Both the position numbers and the translations under genes were made by a program. The notes under the pieces were generated by a model that did not search any database, had not been told where the DNA came from, and saw only the letters and a program-made list of their open reading frames with translations. 21,012 bases of DNA from a virus, in IMG/VR virus record IMGVR_UViG_3300017735_000128, positions 1-21,012 of that record, one strand, 5' to 3'. This document shows, piece by piece, positions 3,412 through 21,012 of this stretch. The stretch's first letter is position 1. Each line of letters opens with the position of its first letter.

Positions 3412-3651
3412 ATGTTAGAGAAAATAAAGAATGGTGCTGATGGTGCTATAGATGTAGGTATTAAGTTGATTAGCTTATCAATTGTATTACAGATTATCTT
3501 TGGTTCAAAGGTAGCCTTCCTTACAGGAAATGTAATTGGTTCTATACTTGATATAGTTTGGACTCTTGGTAATGCAGGACTAGCGGGAATAATCGCAGCC
3601 GGTATTATTTGGAAACTACTCGATAAAGACATCACGAGTGGAGGCAAGTAA
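3412..3651 (+). CDS. small multi-pass membrane protein, 79 residues
   Basis: The sequence has hydrophobic stretches at about residues 16-31, 34-50 and 52-69, separated by GSK and by glycine-rich turns, with a short charged N-terminus (MLEKIKNGAD) and a KDITSGGK tail. Two or three membrane passes are likely. Start at ATG 3412 is supported by AAAGGAG at 3399-3405. The size and topology would suit a holin or a membrane-modulating early protein, but it lies in the replication block next to ribonucleotide reductase, not beside an endolysin, so I would not call it a holin. It overlaps the next small ORF by 14 bases. Confidence 0.65.
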   Translation: MLEKIKNGADGAIDVGIKLISLSIVLQIIFGSKVAFLTGNVIGSILDIVWTLGNAGLAGIIAAGIIWKLLDKDITSGGK

Positions 3652-3772
3652 GCCAATCAAGAAACCTAGTGGTCTTGTTCAACTAGACAAGACTGCTAGA
3701 CTCTACAGAGAATTACAAAAGAAAAAAAATAAACCTAGCCCAAGGCTTTGGAAATCTGATTGGAGAAAGTAA
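3638..3772 (+). CDS. possible 44-residue basic protein (GTG start uncertain)
   Basis: The frame between the membrane protein and the lipoprotein is open for 44 codons and gives a strongly basic product, including KPIKKPSGLVQLDKTARLYR and RELQKKKNKPSPRLWKSDWR in succession. GTG at 3638 is the only ordinary start codon, but no good ribosome site precedes it; a GGAGG at 3640-3644 lies inside the ORF and would instead favour a start a few codons later, where only a non-standard ATC is found. The end couples neatly to the next gene (TAATG at 3770-3774). Real coding is likely from composition and gap-filling; the exact start is doubtful. Confidence 0.45.
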   Translation: MEASKPIKKPSGLVQLDKTARLYRELQKKKNKPSPRLWKSDWRK

Positions 3773-3918
3773 TGAAGTTACTGATTATCCCACTTCTTAT
3801 TGTTACCTTAATAGGGTGCAGTGTACTAGAAGATAAACTAAACATAGAAAGACAAGAATACTTAGAATGCAAACCACCAGAAAGTACATTATGCATAGGG
3901 TGGAAGTATGAAAAATAA
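3772..3918 (+). CDS. small lipoprotein, 48 residues
   Basis: MKLLIIPLLIVTLIGC is a compact lipoprotein signal: basic N-terminus, hydrophobic core and an LIGC lipobox, with cysteine 16 as the predicted lipidated residue. Only about 32 residues remain after processing, including two more cysteines (C33 and C41), so it would be a tiny envelope-anchored peptide. Start ATG overlaps the previous stop (TAATG), with a GGAG at 3762-3765. Small phage lipoproteins include outer-membrane spanins (Rz1-like) and superinfection-exclusion factors. It lacks the proline richness of classic Rz1 and no inner-membrane spanin partner is evident, so the role remains open. Confidence 0.6.
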   Translation: MKLLIIPLLIVTLIGCSVLEDKLNIERQEYLECKPPESTLCIGWKYEK

Positions 3919-12199: not shown

Positions 12200-12444
12200 A
12201 GTTTACTCCACGCTCCTGTGCTTAAGTATAAATATAACCCCTCACCACTGCCCGGATTCCAGTTAGTACCATCTGCGTACCTGACATCTCCAGCTCTTGG
12301 CTTAGATGGAACTGCATTAGATTCGTCATAATGTCCATCAGCTATGTTACTTATTATAGCAGACATTCTAGAAAACTCTTGTCTTAAATATGCAGGTAAA
12401 TCCTTTGCATCATCAGGTACTGGTGCAGGAGAATAACGAATCAT
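12196..12444 (-). CDS. small tail-associated protein (82 residues)
   Basis: The C-terminal half contains KPRAGDVRYADGTNWNPG and then GEGLYLYLSTGAWSKL. This short beta-rich segment recurs in marine phages, usually near tail or fibre genes, as I recall. The N-terminal half (DAKDLPAYLRQEFSRMSAIISNIADG) is a helix that may attach it to a larger structure. Both ends overlap neighbours by four bases, so its translation is tied to the 515-residue protein. Its enzymatic role is unlikely; a trimeric tail or fibre accessory is the best guess. Confidence 0.65.
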   Translation of the reverse strand: MIRYSPAPVPDDAKDLPAYLRQEFSRMSAIISNIADGHYDESNAVPSKPRAGDVRYADGTNWNPGSGEGLYLYLSTGAWSKL

Positions 12445-13988
12445 ACTCCCTTACCTCTGTTTCCTGACGGACTCCAGTGTACTTCTAAGTTAGCTAATGC
12501 CCATGTGTTTGCATCAGTAGACTCTGCTCTAATACCTACATAGTTTCCTGTGGCTCTTACTGGTATCTCTGAATGTACACCACTAGTAAATGTATATGGT
12601 CCTTTCCATGTTGTACCCTCGTGTGGCATCATCTCTTGACCTACATAAAAATCTACTGAACCTGTACCACTTATTCTTGGTACAATCTTTTGTATAGTCT
12701 TAGTACCCGGATACCCTAAATTCATATGTTCCTTTTCTACATATGCTCTAAAACTTGTTCCTGCATTTTGATTACTACCTAATACATACAATTTAGTAGC
12801 ACTTGTAGCAGCTAATAATAAACTAGGCTTAAGTGGTGAATCCCAAGACTCACTGTCTGTGTCCCAGTCTCCTGACTCTGACCAGTCACTTGTACTTACT
12901 GTGTCTACAATACCCCAAGAAATGTAACTTACATATGGCAAGTCTCTTTTAGACCAGCTATTGTTTCTAAAATTATACACATAAGCTGTGTCTGCAAATG
13001 CATTCGTGTCATTAGTGTTAGATACAAAGCATACCCACATTTCATTTTTTTCTCTGTCCGCAGCTACAAATGTTCTTGTCTTGTAGTCTGGATGCATAGA
13101 GTTAAATAGTTCGTCTCTAATTTGTTGGTCTACAATTGATTCTTTAGTCTGACCATCGTGTACATACACATCATCCTCAGAGACCACAAAATGCTTGTTA
13201 TCGAAACTTTTTGCACAGTGCCTACCTAGTATACCAACATCATCAAATAGTTGCCTAAATCCAAATATAGACTGTCCGCCTTCAAATGCCATAGACCAAA
13301 TTGAGTCCTGTTTATATATAATATTAACGTCACCTAACGGTAAGCAATCAATCACATAACCATTAGACTGTGATAAATCTACATAGCCAGCATCTTTAGT
13401 TGCATCTGCTGGATTCCAAGTTGTAGGAACTGTACCGCCCTCTGCTGGATGTGACCACTTAACTCTAAATGGGTATCGTGTGCTTGACTCTGTTGTGTCT
13501 AGTGCTACTAAGAATCTTTTAAATGGTCTAATAACTTGACAACTTGTATTACTTGGCCAATTAGTTAAGTCAGCAAAAGCAGATGAGGCTGTGCCTAACA
13601 TTTGTGGGTCATCTACACCGTTGTTGAGTATAGCTACACCACCTAAAACTCCACCGTTCCATCCTTTAGCAGCAGTAGCTGAATAATCACCACCACTAGA
13701 ACGTGTTACATCAGCGTGAGTTGTTGTAGTTCCGGATGTACTTACTCTGTATATTTTAGTTAAGCTAGGGTAAATCCAATAGTCAGTGGTTGTAGTGTTA
13801 AAAGGTAATAACCAGTAAGGTGCTACTGTGGGTGTACCAAATACTTGTTGTTGTCCTAATACTTTAGCAGTCTTGTCATTGTCAAATTGTATATTATTAC
13901 CATCAGACCATTGAGTTTCTGGTAGTTCATAAGAATCAATATCTCTGTTAATTCCTGTAGGGTTTAATACTGTTACTTGTGCTGGCAT
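12441..13988 (-). CDS. beta-rich neck/tail structural protein (P22 gp10-like candidate, 515 residues)
   Basis: The protein starts MPAQVTVLNPTGINRDIDSY and continues with WSDGNNIQFDNDKTAKVLG, a layout I recognise in marine podovirus structural proteins that are sometimes likened to the P22 head-to-tail stabilisation protein. Repeated short beta segments (VRPF.., YWIYPSLTKIYRV, GGVLGGVAILNNGVDDPQ, NKHFVVSEDDVYVHDG, AYVYNFRNNSWSKRD) suggest a beta-propeller with a separate C-terminal beta domain after about residue 400. It has no signal peptide or transmembrane helix. Its ATG directly abuts the stop of the 298-residue gene. Alternative: a tail tube or receptor-proximal protein. The structural role is likely; the exact position in the virion is uncertain. 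Confidence 0.6.
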   Translation of the reverse strand: MPAQVTVLNPTGINRDIDSYELPETQWSDGNNIQFDNDKTAKVLGQQQVFGTPTVAPYWLLPFNTTTTDYWIYPSLTKIYRVSTSGTTTTHADVTRSSGGDYSATAAKGWNGGVLGGVAILNNGVDDPQMLGTASSAFADLTNWPSNTSCQVIRPFKRFLVALDTTESSTRYPFRVKWSHPAEGGTVPTTWNPADATKDAGYVDLSQSNGYVIDCLPLGDVNIIYKQDSIWSMAFEGGQSIFGFRQLFDDVGILGRHCAKSFDNKHFVVSEDDVYVHDGQTKESIVDQQIRDELFNSMHPDYKTRTFVAADREKNEMWVCFVSNTNDTNAFADTAYVYNFRNNSWSKRDLPYVSYISWGIVDTVSTSDWSESGDWDTDSESWDSPLKPSLLLAATSATKLYVLGSNQNAGTSFRAYVEKEHMNLGYPGTKTIQKIVPRISGTGSVDFYVGQEMMPHEGTTWKGPYTFTSGVHSEIPVRATGNYVGIRAESTDANTWALANLEVHWSPSGNRGKGV

Positions 13989-15514: not shown

Positions 15515-15952
15515 TTATTTTCCTTTTGCTAATTGTGCTCCAAAGTAGAACTCTATTATCATAGTAGCCCAGCCAAAGATTTCATCCATCTTCAATACTG
15601 AACCAGCTTGTATTTCTATATACTCCACTATGTCTGGTGTAAACTGTATACCAAAAAAACTAAATCCTTCTATAGTGTTAGGTATTACTGTTGGTACATT
15701 AAAAAACACTGGAGCTACTTGTGTAAATATTATAAGTGCCAATATAACAAATATAATAACTCGTCTATTAAGTGCAGCCATTGGACTTTCTTTGTCTGCT
15801 CTGTCTCTTGCTTGGTTAATAGAATCATTGCGTGCTTGCAAGTTCTGTATCATTAACTTTTGATTTTCTGCTGCTGCTTGACTCTTTAGTGCAAACAACT
15901 TAGCAACAAAGCCCAGTGCTATTGGTGCTACGTTTGTTAAAAATGCTATCAT
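15515..15952 (-). CDS. membrane protein, holin-like candidate (145 residues)
   Basis: The chosen start is the ATG at 15950-15952, giving MIAFLTNVAPIALGF. A longer open frame reaches back to 16027 but would overlap the previous gene by about 80 bases; GAGG eight bases before 15952 and the ATGA coupling support the internal start. Hydrophobic segments lie at about residues 2-21, 65-88 and 127-141, split by a charged helix (QNLQARNDSINQARDRADKE). Three membrane spans with this spacing resemble the 3TM holins of gene-transfer agents and their relatives, though I do not see a clear match. The neighbouring XhlA-like gene supports a lysis role; there is no endolysin adjacent. Confidence 0.55.
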   Translation of the reverse strand: MIAFLTNVAPIALGFVAKLFALKSQAAAENQKLMIQNLQARNDSINQARDRADKESPMAALNRRVIIFVILALIIFTQVAPVFFNVPTVIPNTIEGFSFFGIQFTPDIVEYIEIQAGSVLKMDEIFGWATMIIEFYFGAQLAKGK

Positions 15953-16158
15953 ATTGCTAACCTCATTGCCTCTATAATCCCTACTTGTCCTATGATGTAC
16001 CAAGCAAATGCACCAAACACTCCCCATTTAATTTGCAGTAATGAAGTGTTAATCTTTTGTATACACAAATTAGTGTCATCAATCTTGCTAAACAGCTTTG
16101 CTATTTGGCCAGAGTGTTTGTCTAATTGTAATTGCATTCTACTAATCTCATCATTCAT
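15949..16158 (-). CDS. coiled-coil plus transmembrane protein, XhlA-like (69 residues)
   Basis: Residues 1-40 form a heptad-like helix (ISRMQLQLDKHSGQIAKLFS) and residues 46-66 a hydrophobic helix (WGVFGAFAWYIIGQVGIIE). Short coil-plus-C-terminal-TM proteins of this layout include the XhlA-type lysis proteins of Bacillus phages and many uncharacterised phage membrane proteins. It overlaps both neighbours by four bases, the holin-like gene downstream and the 42-residue basic gene upstream. Topology is clear; the lysis role is inference. Confidence 0.6.
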   Translation of the reverse strand: MNDEISRMQLQLDKHSGQIAKLFSKIDDTNLCIQKINTSLLQIKWGVFGAFAWYIIGQVGIIEAMRLAI

Positions 16159-16627: not shown

Positions 16628-17175
16628 TTTGCTAGTGGGTTATCTAAAGCTCTTTGTAGTCTTGTGTTAAGTCTATCTTCTACATCTTTAATTTTTCTAT
16701 CTGTATCAGAATAAAGAGCATCTCTTCTCTGGTCAAACCTTGTGTCAGCGTTGTCAATCATTGTTGCTAAGTTTTCTTTTTGTTTTTGCAACTTAGTTTC
16801 TACATCATTAACAATACTTTCAAGGTGTCTCATGTCTTCTCTAACATCCTTTTTTACTTCTTTCACATATGTAATCTGTTCATCAACATTTGCTTTAATC
16901 AAGTCTAGTTCTTCTTTAAACAAATCAATCTCTTTACTAACAAACTCCATATGTGTATTTACTGTAGACATATGCTCGTTTATAACTGCCAAGTCTTTTT
17001 CTATGCCTGACAAATCGGGTGCAATGTAAGAATCTATTTTGGCTTCCATGTCTAGGTATCTTTGGTACACTTCAAATCCGCCCCAAGCACCACCTAATAC
17101 TGTACCAATTAAAGGAATGATTAATAGTAACTTACTACCACCTACTTTAATCCCACCGTATTCTACTTCTGCCAT
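16624..17175 (-). CDS. membrane-anchored coiled-coil protein (183 residues)
   Basis: Residues 16-36 (LLLIIPLIGTVLGGAWGGFE region) form one transmembrane helix, and residues 50-175 form a long charged coiled coil (for example IEKDLAVINEHMSTVNTHM and LESIVNDVETKLQKQKEN) ending in a basic NTRLQRALDNPLAN. The predicted form is an inner-membrane anchor with a long rod. Length and layout resemble i-spanin or tail-fibre chaperone-like rods, but neither is proven. The gene starts 13 bases inside the nidogen-like gene, so the rod and the two secreted proteins upstream are made as a set and may act together at the envelope. Confidence 0.65.
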   Translation of the reverse strand: MAEVEYGGIKVGGSKLLLIIPLIGTVLGGAWGGFEVYQRYLDMEAKIDSYIAPDLSGIEKDLAVINEHMSTVNTHMEFVSKEIDLFKEELDLIKANVDEQITYVKEVKKDVREDMRHLESIVNDVETKLQKQKENLATMIDNADTRFDQRRDALYSDTDRKIKDVEDRLNTRLQRALDNPLAN

Positions 17176-18635
17176 TGCAAGTCCATTAATTTATTATGTA
17201 GTATTTCGTTAGCCAAACCGTTTCTTAATCCTCTTTGATTGTCTGGTATATCCTTGTCTAAATATATACCTTTGTCTTTATAAAACACACCATCAATAAG
17301 TAGTTGTGTGTTGTAGCTGTCAAATCCAGCATTAAAGTTTAAGAGTGCAAGTATTAGGCTTTGTAGTTTTTGTTGTTCTTCTAGTGATGCAGCTTCGCCC
17401 ATTTCTACTGCAAGATTCTTTAGCTTGTTACCTATAATCTCACGCATCTTTTCTTTCTTACTAGCCTCTTTCTTTTTCTGTACTAGCTTGGGCTCTTCTA
17501 CAACTTCTACTACCGCCTCTTGTTCTGGCTCTTCTTCTGTTTGTTCTTCTTGTATGGTGTCTTCTTCTGGCTCTGGCTCATCAAGTTCCTCTTCTATTGG
17601 TTCTTCTAAAGGTTCTTCTTCTAACTCTGGCTCTAGGAATTCTTCTAACTCTGCTTCTATTTCCTCTATTAATTCTTCTTGTGCTATTTCCTCAAACAAG
17701 TCTTCCATCTCTGGTATGGCTTCTTCTATGGTTGTGGAAATTAATGTGTAGTCATCCAACGGTTCTATTTCTATTACTTGAAAAACCTCTGGCTCTTCCA
17801 AGACGTATATTGATTCAGTATCTTCCTCATCAGCTTCCCAAACTTCTGGTACATCTTCCTCAACATATTCATCTATGTAAGCATCACTCCATCCATCACA
17901 ACCGTAATCGTACAGAGGGTCCAATGCACATTGTTGATTATACACATTATCAGCATAGACTTGTGGGTAGTATAAACAACTGATATGACTGTCTGGTATT
18001 ACACTGCATACACTCTCTCCGTTTGCTATTTCTACTGGGTCATCTTCTGCACTGTTCCAAAAGATTGCTCCGTTAGTAGGGTGGTTATAGAACCATTGTT
18101 CATACTCACCTAAACTTAAATCTCCAACTACTGCTACTGTTACTGCGTGGTTATTTATTTGTACCTGTTCATAGTTTACATCTATGTTACCCATTGGGTA
18201 TATTGTCAGGTCAAATGTATTACTTGTATCTCTGTTGTAATACTCTGACAAGTTTTCCCACATATACTTCTGGAATGTAGAATCACCTTGTGTATAAAAC
18301 TTACCAATACCTGTGTCTATTAAATCAGTATGCCATGGCATTATAGTGTAGTTAAACCTTACACCTGTTGCTCCACTACTAAAATCTTGTCCAGAACAAC
18401 ACAACCCATCATGTACATAACCAGTACCGGGTACATCAAGAGGGTCAAGAAACCCCACAACACCGTTACTAAACATAAAGCTAGTGACATAACTATTTCC
18501 ATAAAAAGGAAAAGTAAAGTCAAGAGGTACTTCCACCCAACCATCATCTGCTATCTGATGCTCAATTATCTCTGGGTCAGATAACGAGAACAGCGAGAAG
18601 GATAACGCCAAGAATGCCACTAACCAATTTCTCAA
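17163..18635 (-). CDS. secreted nidogen-like protein with Glu-rich linker (490 residues, TTG start)
   Basis: Start is TTG at 18633-18635: GAGGAG lies seven bases upstream and the first 18 residues (MRNWLVAFLALSFSLFSL) form a signal peptide. Residues 28-205 look like a NIDO-type beta domain: PLDFTFPFYGNSYVTSFMFSNG, then FDLTIYPMGNIDVNYEQVQI, features of nidogen-like extracellular domains. Six cysteines (C79, C80, C210, C220, C236, C246) could form disulfides. Residues 259-382 are a Glu/Pro-rich linker. Residues 385-490 form a basic helical then compact end (NTQLLIDGVFYKDKGIYLD). It overlaps the 198-residue gene by 59 bases and the 183-residue gene by 13. Likely exported; whether it ends in the virion or host envelope is open. 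Confidence 0.6.
   Translation of the reverse strand: MRNWLVAFLALSFSLFSLSDPEIIEHQIADDGWVEVPLDFTFPFYGNSYVTSFMFSNGVVGFLDPLDVPGTGYVHDGLCCSGQDFSSGATGVRFNYTIMPWHTDLIDTGIGKFYTQGDSTFQKYMWENLSEYYNRDTSNTFDLTIYPMGNIDVNYEQVQINNHAVTVAVVGDLSLGEYEQWFYNHPTNGAIFWNSAEDDPVEIANGESVCSVIPDSHISCLYYPQVYADNVYNQQCALDPLYDYGCDGWSDAYIDEYVEEDVPEVWEADEEDTESIYVLEEPEVFQVIEIEPLDDYTLISTTIEEAIPEMEDLFEEIAQEELIEEIEAELEEFLEPELEEEPLEEPIEEELDEPEPEEDTIQEEQTEEEPEQEAVVEVVEEPKLVQKKKEASKKEKMREIIGNKLKNLAVEMGEAASLEEQQKLQSLILALLNFNAGFDSYNTQLLIDGVFYKDKGIYLDKDIPDNQRGLRNGLANEILHNKLMDLQWQK
17490..17861 (-). repeat. low-complexity GAA/GAG-rich tract (Glu-rich linker)
   Basis: On the plus strand this tract is dense in CTT, TCT and TTC triplets; on the minus strand it encodes the Glu/Pro-rich linker (about residues 259-382) of the secreted nidogen-like protein, with motifs such as EEPLEEPIEEELDEPEPE. 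It is a simple-sequence region prone to length variation, not a mobile element. Confidence 0.7.
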
Positions 18636-19173
18636 GGAATACTCCTCTATTCATATTAGAAGCAGGTGGTTTAGGTGGAATCTTTTTAGGATTCAATCTC
18701 CATTCTGCTGTTGCTTCTTGTCCTATTAACCCTTCACCAGTTACAGGATTATTTATCGGGCAGGGGGTTCCTGCAAATTTCATTGCATCAAACACGCTTC
18801 TCGTTTGACACATTAAAGCAACTGCTGCTACCTTCATACCCATATCATATAATACTTTAGCGTTCTTTAATCTCATACAGTTCTCATCTGAGTAAGCCTG
18901 TCCTGTACTAATACCTAGTATCTGTGTCTGTACTGCTCCACTAACACCTACCATACATAAGTCACTATTACTTGCGTTAATGCTCGGACTAATTGCACTA
19001 GGTGGGTTAGTCCTAACTGTACTTTTACTGTCTGTACTTGTTGTTACTGTACTATTACTTGTACTATTTGTAACAATTGGGTCAGCAGCGTTTACAACAT
19101 TAATAGGTGTAAACAACATAATAGCTGTTAATAATATCCCTATAAATAAACCTAATGCTTTTTCTTTTATCAT
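18577..19173 (-). CDS. secreted Ser/Thr-rich protein with C-terminal membrane anchor (198 residues)
   Basis: A signal peptide (IKEKALGLFIGILLTAIMLF to NVVNA) with likely cleavage near residue 29 is followed by a Ser/Thr/Asn-rich linker (residues 33-70, TNSTSNSTVTTSTDSKS). Four cysteines (C73, C99, C122, C138) may form two disulfides around a helical region (KNAKVLYDMGMKVAAVALMC). The C-terminal helix at about 180-198 (GILGVILLAVLVI) would anchor it in a membrane. The protein is small for a tail part and looks like an envelope factor. It overlaps the oxygenase stop by four bases and the nidogen-like gene by 59 bases, in a different frame. No family is recognised. Confidence 0.6.
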   Translation of the reverse strand: MIKEKALGLFIGILLTAIMLFTPINVVNAADPIVTNSTSNSTVTTSTDSKSTVRTNPPSAISPSINASNSDLCMVGVSGAVQTQILGISTGQAYSDENCMRLKNAKVLYDMGMKVAAVALMCQTRSVFDAMKFAGTPCPINNPVTGEGLIGQEATAEWRLNPKKIPPKPPASNMNRGVFLEKLVSGILGVILLAVLVI

Positions 19174-19727
19174 AAAAACCTATTTCCAACAAACCAAGTA
19201 ACTAACGAATATCTAGTTCCTTTTGTTACTTTATGTACTTTATGTAAATAATAGCTTGGAAAAAAAATTAAAGTTCCTTTTGTAGGTTTAATCCTTCCTT
19301 CCTCACAAACAGATTTGTGTAATTCAAAATCCCCACCTTCAAAATTATCATTTAACCAAAGTACCATAGATATTTTTCTAACTTTGTCTTTTAAAAGAGT
19401 TGCGTTTGAATCTATTTTATTATGACCATCTCCATCTATATGCCAGTCATAATGCCCTTGTCCTTCTTTGTATCTACCTAATTGAAAGTTTTCACAAGCA
19501 TCAATTTCAAAATGCCAACCTGCTTGTTGATTTGCTCTATCTAAATACGGAAAGAATAATTCATACAATTCTTTTTCTCTAGACCAAGCAACATCCGTAA
19601 CTCTAATTTTGCTATCAACATCACCTTTGTTTACAGTTCCGTTTTGAAAAGAATCAAAACAATTAAATATTCTTTTTATTTGGTCAGTATTTAATTCTTT
19701 TTCATACTGCCAATAACTATAACTCAT
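19170..19727 (-). CDS. 2OG-Fe(II) oxygenase, PKHD/PiuC-like (185 residues)
   Basis: The Fe(II)/2-oxoglutarate site is complete: YDWHIDGDG gives H96-x-D98, LHKVHKVTKGTR gives H162 and R172, and FEGGDFEL with FFPSYYLH (about 129-163) matches the beta-helix core. The pattern resembles PKHD-type hydroxylases such as PiuC/YbiX more than the other two oxygenases here. These enzymes use O2 and 2-oxoglutarate to hydroxylate a protein or small substrate; the target cannot be read from sequence. Its ATG follows the previous stop directly with no Shine-Dalgarno site, and its AT content is higher than neighbours. The stop overlaps the secreted 198-residue gene. Confidence 0.88.
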   Translation of the reverse strand: MSYSYWQYEKELNTDQIKRIFNCFDSFQNGTVNKGDVDSKIRVTDVAWSREKELYELFFPYLDRANQQAGWHFEIDACENFQLGRYKEGQGHYDWHIDGDGHNKIDSNATLLKDKVRKISMVLWLNDNFEGGDFELHKSVCEEGRIKPTKGTLIFFPSYYLHKVHKVTKGTRYSLVTWFVGNRFL

Positions 19728-20015
19728 TTATGTTTTTGGTATATCGTCTTTAACCTTTTGTATTTTTGCAGCCATAGTTGAACTAAAATGTCCTTGAGCA
19801 AACAAATCATCTAACTGGTCGCCTATATCTGGATAAGCTAATTTTCTTTTATGTTTATATGTTCTTTCGTCAACCCAATTAGTACCATTATGTGTAGAGC
19901 CTATTCTAGCTATACCAGATATTTCTCTAGCAGTTTGTCCATCAGGCACATCTGCCTCAGTAGTCCAAACACCACTAATTGCTACTCCATCACTATTACA
20001 TCCTAAATATGGCAT
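19728..20015 (-). CDS. YPDIGDQLD-motif phage protein (95 residues)
   Basis: The C-terminal part contains KRKLAYPDIGDQLDDLFAQG and then MAAKIQKVKDDIPKT. The YPxIGDQLD segment is widespread in marine phages and lies mostly beside tail-fibre or tail-tip genes, as I recall. The N-terminal half (SDGVAISGVWTTEADV) is beta-like. The start has the strong TTAGGAGAATAAT site shared exactly with the 24-residue peptide gene. Located between two oxygenases, its base composition is closer to the structural genes than to them, so it probably belongs to the phage core. A tail role is likely; the exact one is not known. Confidence 0.65.
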   Translation of the reverse strand: MPYLGCNSDGVAISGVWTTEADVPDGQTAREISGIARIGSTHNGTNWVDERTYKHKRKLAYPDIGDQLDDLFAQGHFSSTMAAKIQKVKDDIPKT

Positions 20016-20028
20016 ATTATTCTCCTAA
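20010..20028 (-). repeat. 19-nt translation-start repeat, copy 2
   Basis: Identical on the minus strand to the sequence at 16609-16627 (TTAGGAGAATAATATGCCA); again it spans a TAG stop, a Shine-Dalgarno site and an ATG, here of the 95-residue gene. Confidence 0.85.
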
Positions 20029-20582
20029 CAATAAATCCAACCTGTTGCTATATATTTTGTTCCTTTTTCAATCATATTACCTCTATGTATGTGTGTGTAA
20101 TATGCAGGAAAAATAACTAATTTACCCATCTCTGGTTTTATATTTTTCTTTTGAAACAACATTTGTGTTTCACCACCTTTATAATTATCGTTCAAATAAA
20201 CTATAAAAGTCATTGCTCTATCTGATGTTTCCCTACTTGATGCTTCACAATGCCAAGTGCTATATTGTTCGCACATATCTGCAATGCTTCGTTGTACTAA
20301 AAAATCTTTACACCACAAACCATCATTGAACATTTTTTGTAGATTATATTTTTGTACATAACTGTCTAACCCTTCTTCAATAAATCCAAAAAACTCTTTA
20401 GACAATTCTGTGTTTCGCATATTAGCATCATCTATTGAAGCTAAGTTTGTTTGGTTATCTCGTCTTACGCTGTCATGTCTTGTTCTTACACAACCCATTT
20501 CAGATAAGTTTTCAAACGCATCTATTGTTTTTTGACAAAACTCTGCACCTATTCTTTTAGGATGTTCGTATATTAAATCCAT
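20025..20582 (-). CDS. 2OG-Fe(II) oxygenase with HxE...H...K site (185 residues)
   Basis: The motif order is that of a 2OG-Fe(II) oxygenase: STWHCEASSRE gives H111-x-E113 in place of HxD, YLNDNYKGGETQM gives the conserved glycine turn, FPAYYTHIHRGN gives H164, and GTKYIATGW gives K176 where Arg binds 2-oxoglutarate in many relatives. Glu is known in some families as the acidic ligand, and collagen-type prolyl hydroxylases use Lys for 2-oxoglutarate. WHxE with THxHRG is, to my recollection, a recurrent phage subfamily. It starts in the previous stop (TAATG) without a ribosome site and ends in the ribosome site of the 95-residue gene. Function and substrate are unknown. Confidence 0.85.
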   Translation of the reverse strand: MDLIYEHPKRIGAEFCQKTIDAFENLSEMGCVRTRHDSVRRDNQTNLASIDDANMRNTELSKEFFGFIEEGLDSYVQKYNLQKMFNDGLWCKDFLVQRSIADMCEQYSTWHCEASSRETSDRAMTFIVYLNDNYKGGETQMLFQKKNIKPEMGKLVIFPAYYTHIHRGNMIEKGTKYIATGWIYC

Positions 20583-21012
20583 TATTTGTAATTTATATTT
20601 AAAACAATCCTAGTATCTTTGTCTGTTTGTGCTACTGATGTATGTAAAACATCATCATTAAATTTTAACACTCTATTCTTTTTGCTTTTAACCTTAGTTC
20701 CATCTTCGAGCAAGGTATATCCATTGTTATTATCAAAATACAAAATTGCTATTTTTATGTCTTTATCAACTTGATTGTCGTAATGCCAACCACCAACAGT
20801 TTTTTTATTTGTATTAAATATTAAATTTGCTTTTGCTCTATATATTTCTTTAGCATTTAATTTATCAAACAACTCATCTAATTCTTTTAACCATATACTT
20901 TTTGCTTTATGATTAACAAATATATGACTCATTTGTTTATTCTTATTACTTGACTTATAACCTGCAATTGGTGATTTAATATTACAACTTACAATTGTTG
21001 ATAAATACCACG
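20582..21012 (-). CDS. 2OG-Fe(II) oxygenase, 5'-truncated at window edge
   Basis: The frame is open from the window edge (first full codon at 21010) to a TAA at 20582-20584. An ATG lies at 20930-20932, but no ribosome site precedes it and the residues upstream (WYLSTIVS, then NIKSPIAGYK) look like real coding, so the gene probably begins outside the window. Motifs: GGWHYDN for the H-x-D, VLKFNDDVLHTSV for the second histidine, and KDTRIVLNINYK with the Arg that binds 2-oxoglutarate. The double-stranded beta-helix core is recognisable (IAILYFDNNNGYTLL). It is the third oxygenase in this segment and its base composition is the most AT-rich, about 26% G+C in the rows I counted. Substrate unknown. 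Confidence 0.75.
   Translation of the reverse strand, partial: WYLSTIVSCNIKSPIAGYKSSNKNKQMSHIFVNHKAKSIWLKELDELFDKLNAKEIYRAKANLIFNTNKKTVGGWHYDNQVDKDIKIAILYFDNNNGYTLLEDGTKVKSKKNRVLKFNDDVLHTSVAQTDKDTRIVLNINYK

Follow-up and report, generated by a model that had tools for sequence, protein, structure and literature searches.

An overlapping trio of marine phage genes that may encode a lysis-stage envelope complex

Do three overlapping phage genes, whose products are predicted to be exported or membrane-anchored, encode one complex at the host envelope, and at which stage of infection would it act? The genes lie in IMG/VR virus record IMGVR_UViG_3300017735_000128, and the window is the whole 21,012-base stretch of that record that was analysed. 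On the minus strand, a 2OG-Fe(II) oxygenase gene is followed by genes A, B and C, with successive overlaps of 4, 59 and 13 nt. Gene A (198 aa) extends from an ATG at 19173 to a stop at 18577, gene B (490 aa) from a TTG at 18635 to a stop at 17163, and gene C (183 aa) from an ATG at 17175 to 16624. The explanation we favour, with a probability of roughly 0.42, is that A, B and C form an accessory, envelope-bridging set, conserved and coupled in translation, that acts at the lysis stage. The region upstream of A (19170-20932, minus strand) contains two Pfam-supported 2OG-Fe(II) oxygenase genes (19170-19727 and 20025-20582) and a third oxygenase-like ORF with no Pfam match (20582-20932); in other phages, 6 of the 146 ORFs neighbouring the module belonged to the same family.

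The A/B overlap (18577..18635, minus strand) encodes both the C-terminal membrane helix of A and the signal peptide of B, which is read in frame +1 relative to A. A first-pass annotation of this DNA had described a 59-base out-of-frame overlap in which the two segments share the same letters; its coordinates were exact, the frames differ, and both segments are read from one T-rich stretch. The TTG at 18635 is the first start codon of the B open frame and the sole possible start of B, and a ribosome-binding site, GAGGAG (18642..18647), lies six bases upstream of it within gene A. The next methionine in the listed B protein is at about residue 54, and a protein initiated there would lack the signal peptide along with some of the nidogen-like domain. 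Gene C starts within gene B, as had also been noticed; the two overlap by 13 nt (17163..17175), and this overlap is identical in close relatives.

An overlap as long as that between A and B could be due to chance in one genome, but its conservation argues otherwise. The survey covered 116 loci in which A is accompanied by a B-like frame; their A proteins fall into 32 clusters at 70% identity and 17 at 60%. The script paired a few roseophage entries wrongly, and these were inspected manually. The overlap was at least 30 nt in 110 of the 116 loci, the second gene was in the +1 frame in 109 of those 110, and 88 loci had a ribosome site of 4 bases or more. A C-terminal hydrophobic segment was present in A at 104 of the 110 deep overlaps and at none of the 6 other loci. 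Differences at fourfold sites amounted to 0.24 in the overlap versus 0.32, a modest reduction calculated from non-independent pairs; the lowered synonymous change is supportive of constraint and not decisive. An artefact of ORF calling or an accident of one genome was ruled out by the analysis of starts and ribosome sites together with the recurrence of the overlap.

Corrected gene starts extended this pattern. The annotated B of HTVC115P begins at GTG 5434 and has no leader, and ATG 5371, inside A, restores one. The roseophages CRP-207 and CRP-810 keep A and C around a middle gene that encodes an exported protein unrelated to B, and the correct start of that gene again lies in the +1 frame inside A with a ribosome site (ATG 2468 in CRP-207 and ATG 5371 in CRP-810). 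Since the overlap recurs in relatives and the roseophage middle gene also starts inside A, the overlap is a stable property of the locus, even where the second gene has changed or A has no C-terminal anchor. In the public annotations, second-gene starts are truncated at L003:5371-5447 (HTVC115P), L010:2468-2547 (CRP-207) and L008:5371-5531 (CRP-810), and the ctXG6705 record is missing the A and C genes (L007:4848-5354 and L007:6188-6598).

The three genes had been proposed to be linked, and this held among close relatives: a scan with B yielded 74 viral loci, in all of which A, B and C occur in the same order wherever the contig reaches. The genes are less tightly bound elsewhere, as many relatives have three genes between B and C, and the unrelated roseophage middle gene rules out a strictly obligatory trio. 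The refuting condition named in the first-pass annotation, that relatives would carry the genes independently of one another, is thereby partly borne out. A scan of IMG/VR contigs with the A alignment matched at least 594 stretches. A search of 50,697 phage records found the A core in 11, most of them from phages of SAR11 and Roseobacter: six Pelagibacter phages of various kinds (the Kyanoviridae myophage Mosig and five with smaller genomes), two roseophages, an uncultured podovirus from the Mediterranean and two spring phages. Only 19 MAG/SAG contigs matched among 84,980 cellular genomes, consistent with these being phage DNA. The prevailing layouts are A-B-C and A-B-D-X-E-C; D, X and E are additional proteins that look exported. 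The D, X and E families were located between B and C at L111:6269-7779, L096:6432-7733 and about 40 other loci. No function was returned for A, B, C, D, X or E by Pfam, PHROGs, PDB profile or fold searches, the last run without the AF2 model of B.

Protein A consists of a signal peptide (about residues 1-30), a disordered Asn/Ser/Thr-rich stretch, a helical core and a C-terminal membrane helix. Its AF2 model (mean pLDDT 71, core about 90) has a leader helix at 3-21, the disordered stretch, a small helical domain at 97-160 and a terminal helix at 176-197, and its C-terminal hydrophobic run, SGILGVILLAVLVI, scores 3.05 on the Kyte-Doolittle scale. Four cysteines in the helical core (C73, C99, C122 and C138) are invariant in the A family. 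The core matched PHROG 20531 (E 3.7e-18), which carries no function; membership is silent on mechanism. A and B had both been read as exported, and hydropathy and cleavage-site inspection, by which we assigned export, revealed hydrophobic leaders in both.

Protein B begins with MRNWLVAFLALSFSLFSLS, and its first 19 or so residues are its only strongly hydrophobic segment. This signal peptide is followed by a nidogen-like domain (about residues 28-171; 18123..18554, minus strand), a Cys-x9-Cys repeat (236-246), an acidic linker (255-385) that is 46% Asp and Glu, and a C-terminal helical region (about 390-490) whose conserved part (17166..17468, minus strand) ends in PDNQRGLRNGLANEILHNKLMDLQWQK. 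The repeat occurs once in B and gives up to seven regex matches in relatives. Pfam detected no NIDO domain (PF06119) above the curated cut-off in B and 20 relatives (21 sequences), nor any in the window, in a search whose controls were silent. When the N-terminal domain was aligned by hhalign with a profile of cellular NIDO relatives gathered through PF06119, the match had a probability of 98.9, an E of 2e-17 and a score of 110, compared to a maximum of 14.7 for 20 column-shuffled profiles. The term nidogen-like, used from the beginning, is thus borne out at the level of remote homology. B differs from NIDO proteins in that its domain falls below Pfam detection and is fused to an acidic linker and a C-terminal region specific to phages.

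The N-terminal domains of B are of at least three types (nidogen-like, lectin-like and short) on related C-termini. L143 and L162 share the C-terminus of B and have different heads, and the B proteins of HTVC023P and HTVC033P can be aligned at the C-terminus only. L083, L080, L081, L084 and L078 were considered as window-type B proteins with swapped heads and were rejected, as their sequences show changes in linker length or truncation only. At L062:5001-6458, frame breaks interrupt B, either through sequencing error or in a decayed copy.

Protein C has an N-terminal membrane helix (about residues 16-38), a long coiled coil and a C-terminal NPL motif, which is present in 124 of 128 family members. 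Judged by hydropathy and sequence, it is the membrane-anchored coiled-coil rod of the first-pass annotation, and the membrane helix and coiled coil are those expected of an i-spanin.

The neighbourhood of the trio points toward lysis. Downstream of C in the window are genes for an XhlA/hemolysin-like small membrane protein (15949..16158, minus strand) and a 3TM-holin-like protein (15515..16027, minus strand), the latter with a likely true start at 15952 that gives a 4-nt overlap with the XhlA-like gene. A gene for a small membrane protein of holin-like, XhlA-like or another type lay within the region covered at 21 of 39 sampled loci, a count that has no random-genome baseline, and about half of the loci had none of the holin-like genes searched for. 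Neighbour families included endolysin (phrog_7, 3 proteins), phage lysozyme (3), GTA_holin_3TM and an Rz-like spanin. In Mosig and uvMED S28-C10 a holin-like gene immediately precedes A, an M15 peptidase gene immediately follows C in HTVC023P, and a lysozyme gene lies upstream of A in HTVC033P. Two relatives carry separate spanin-like pairs: in L162 a TM-coiled-coil gene overlaps a lipoprotein gene that matches an Rz-like spanin PHROG, and in L149 a TM gene overlaps a lipoprotein gene just downstream of C. A possible transglycosylase-like protein is encoded among the internal virion genes of a relative (L164, G003, 12317-12814), where a separate endolysin was not obvious by eye.

Roseophage loci have a further gene just upstream of A, here called mini-A, which encodes a 72-87 aa lipoprotein of outer-membrane type with a lipobox and the Cys/helix pattern of the A core. 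Mini-A was located at L008:4558-4818 (CRP-810), L010:1725-1940 (CRP-207) and L011:886-1101 (spring phage ct7L0027), and the annotated start of A falls inside it in at least CRP-810 and CRP-207. The order is mini-A, A, a middle gene B' and C, preceded in CRP-810 and ct7L0027 by a gene for an N-terminal-TM coiled-coil protein; next to that gene, mini-A has what appears to be a spanin-like layout. Elsewhere in the window, on the plus strand near a ribonucleotide-reductase-like gene, a 79-aa two-helix membrane protein is followed by a 52-aa lipoprotein with the lipobox LIGC (3412-3918, lipoprotein 3760-3918). This is a possible second lysis cassette or o-spanin candidate, and proteins that look similar to the 79-aa protein adjoin the module in L114, L124 and L134.

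Because the genes often lie beside cell-bursting genes, the trio probably helps virus release, and an envelope-spanning complex of the three, as first proposed, is plausible from their predicted topologies. A would be exported and then stay in the inner membrane through its C-terminal helix, its disulfide-rich helical core lying in the periplasm. C would be an inner-membrane rod directed into the periplasm. B would be exported. Its head, nidogen-like here and lectin-like elsewhere, would extend on the long acidic linker in the direction of the outer membrane or the surface of the cell, and the conserved C-terminal helices of B would dock onto a base formed by A and C; the reach of the linker and the docking are guesses, as the AF2 model of B (pLDDT 38) was unusable. 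The A/B overlap would couple translation, such that the partners are made together. Once assembled, the trio would span the envelope and, together with the holin and any spanins present, contribute to breaching or remodelling the outer membrane so that virions can leave. This lysis-stage reading is favoured by the co-inheritance of the overlap with the membrane anchor of A, the co-occurrence of the trio, the lysis-gene neighbours, the roseophage mini-A and the topology of C. The results of the functional searches, the loci with no holin-like gene and the rarity of the lipobox count against it, as do the spanin-like pairs of L162 and L149, by which the outer-membrane breach may already be covered in those two phages. 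The text of the paper on the HTVC027P transcriptome (PMC12753301) gives no timing for the trio genes.

Among the functions suggested by the first-pass annotation, lysis is best supported, by the gene neighbourhood, and superinfection exclusion is possible. Receptor binding would suit the lectin-like and nidogen-like heads just as well, and the main rival, which we consider rather unlikely, is that an exchangeable B head, anchored via A and C, binds a receptor or surface glycan of the host, acting from the periplasm or from the cell surface; infected cells and debris would then cease adsorbing phage, as with T5 Llp or Cor. The variety of heads on related C-termini fits such masking, and phage-exported periplasmic proteins such as Llp do block receptors (PMC9586334). 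The lysis-like neighbourhood speaks against it, as does the location of B heads, which were found only beside A and not in any other ORF at those loci, even among the tail genes. Likened by description and not by sequence, Llp and Cor are also phage-encoded exported proteins at the host envelope, but exclusion proteins such as Llp are small early lipoproteins, whereas the trio comprises three or more larger proteins. A phage-built adhesive structure that alters the infected cell surface, for aggregation or neighbour capture, is less probable still. Its role would be like that of the curli (CsgGF) modules present in pelagiphages (PMC9599517), and it would suit the six exported or membrane proteins of the long layout and the weak likeness of D to spore-coat-U/pilin domains (probability 48, E 1.8e-4). 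However, no usher or secretion pore was seen in the module, X tested as a PapD-type chaperone scored within the shuffles, and D, X and E are absent from the trio locus of the window phage.

It is improbable that the trio is the spanin system of the phage, with C as the i-spanin and A or B as the outer-membrane partner. Overlapping gene starts are typical of spanin pairs, a known case of overlapping exported phage genes (PMC6139136), and like the two-component spanins (lambda Rz/Rz1, P2 LysB/LysC and T4 PseT.3/PseT.2) the trio combines out-of-frame overlap of envelope genes with an N-terminal-TM coiled-coil partner in a lysis region; the mini-A lipoprotein adds to the resemblance. In contrast to those spanins, it has at least three proteins, a large adhesive-type head on B and no outer-membrane lipoprotein: an o-spanin lipobox was found in 0 of 96 B proteins and in 3 of 139 A-family matches, two of them roseophage mini-A and one within a normal-looking signal peptide. 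C is also only 74 aa in L009. Like the unimolecular spanins (T1 gp11), A carries an export signal at its N-terminus and ends in a membrane helix, but it has no lipobox, and its helical core carries the four invariant cysteines, predicted to be periplasmic, whereas u-spanins are reported to have no periplasmic cysteine (PMC6139136). Given the missing lipobox and the coexisting pairs in two relatives, the trio is not filed as a spanin and, on present predictions, is not simply the spanin, though C is topologically like an i-spanin. The third function suggested at first, virion attachment, would have the proteins join particles as adhesion factors at or after lysis, in line with the nidogen-like and lectin-like heads and with tail-fibre genes close by in some loci. 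Virions assemble in the cytoplasm, and signal peptides would take the proteins out of that compartment, which makes this the least likely reading of all.

A gene set that combines adhesive heads with a membrane anchor and a signal peptide encoded by one stretch of DNA appears to be undescribed; literature searches on lysis in pelagiphages and on signal peptides, spanins and nidogen in marine phages turned up no account of it, in agreement with the initial impression. A broader proposal, which we regard as doubtful, is that the trio and its extended A-B-D-X-E-C form are an ocean-wide envelope apparatus with exchangeable adhesive heads for virion release from SAR11-like hosts, whose anchor and export signal are kept in one conserved T-rich stretch. 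SAR11 are the most abundant marine bacteria, and the lysis and envelope interactions of their phages, several of which carry the trio, are poorly understood. The anchor/signal overlap offers a clean natural case of two membrane-targeting sequences maintained in one DNA stretch. If the trio is indeed a release or exclusion system, it would provide a common mechanism of viral turnover in the ocean that can be tested.
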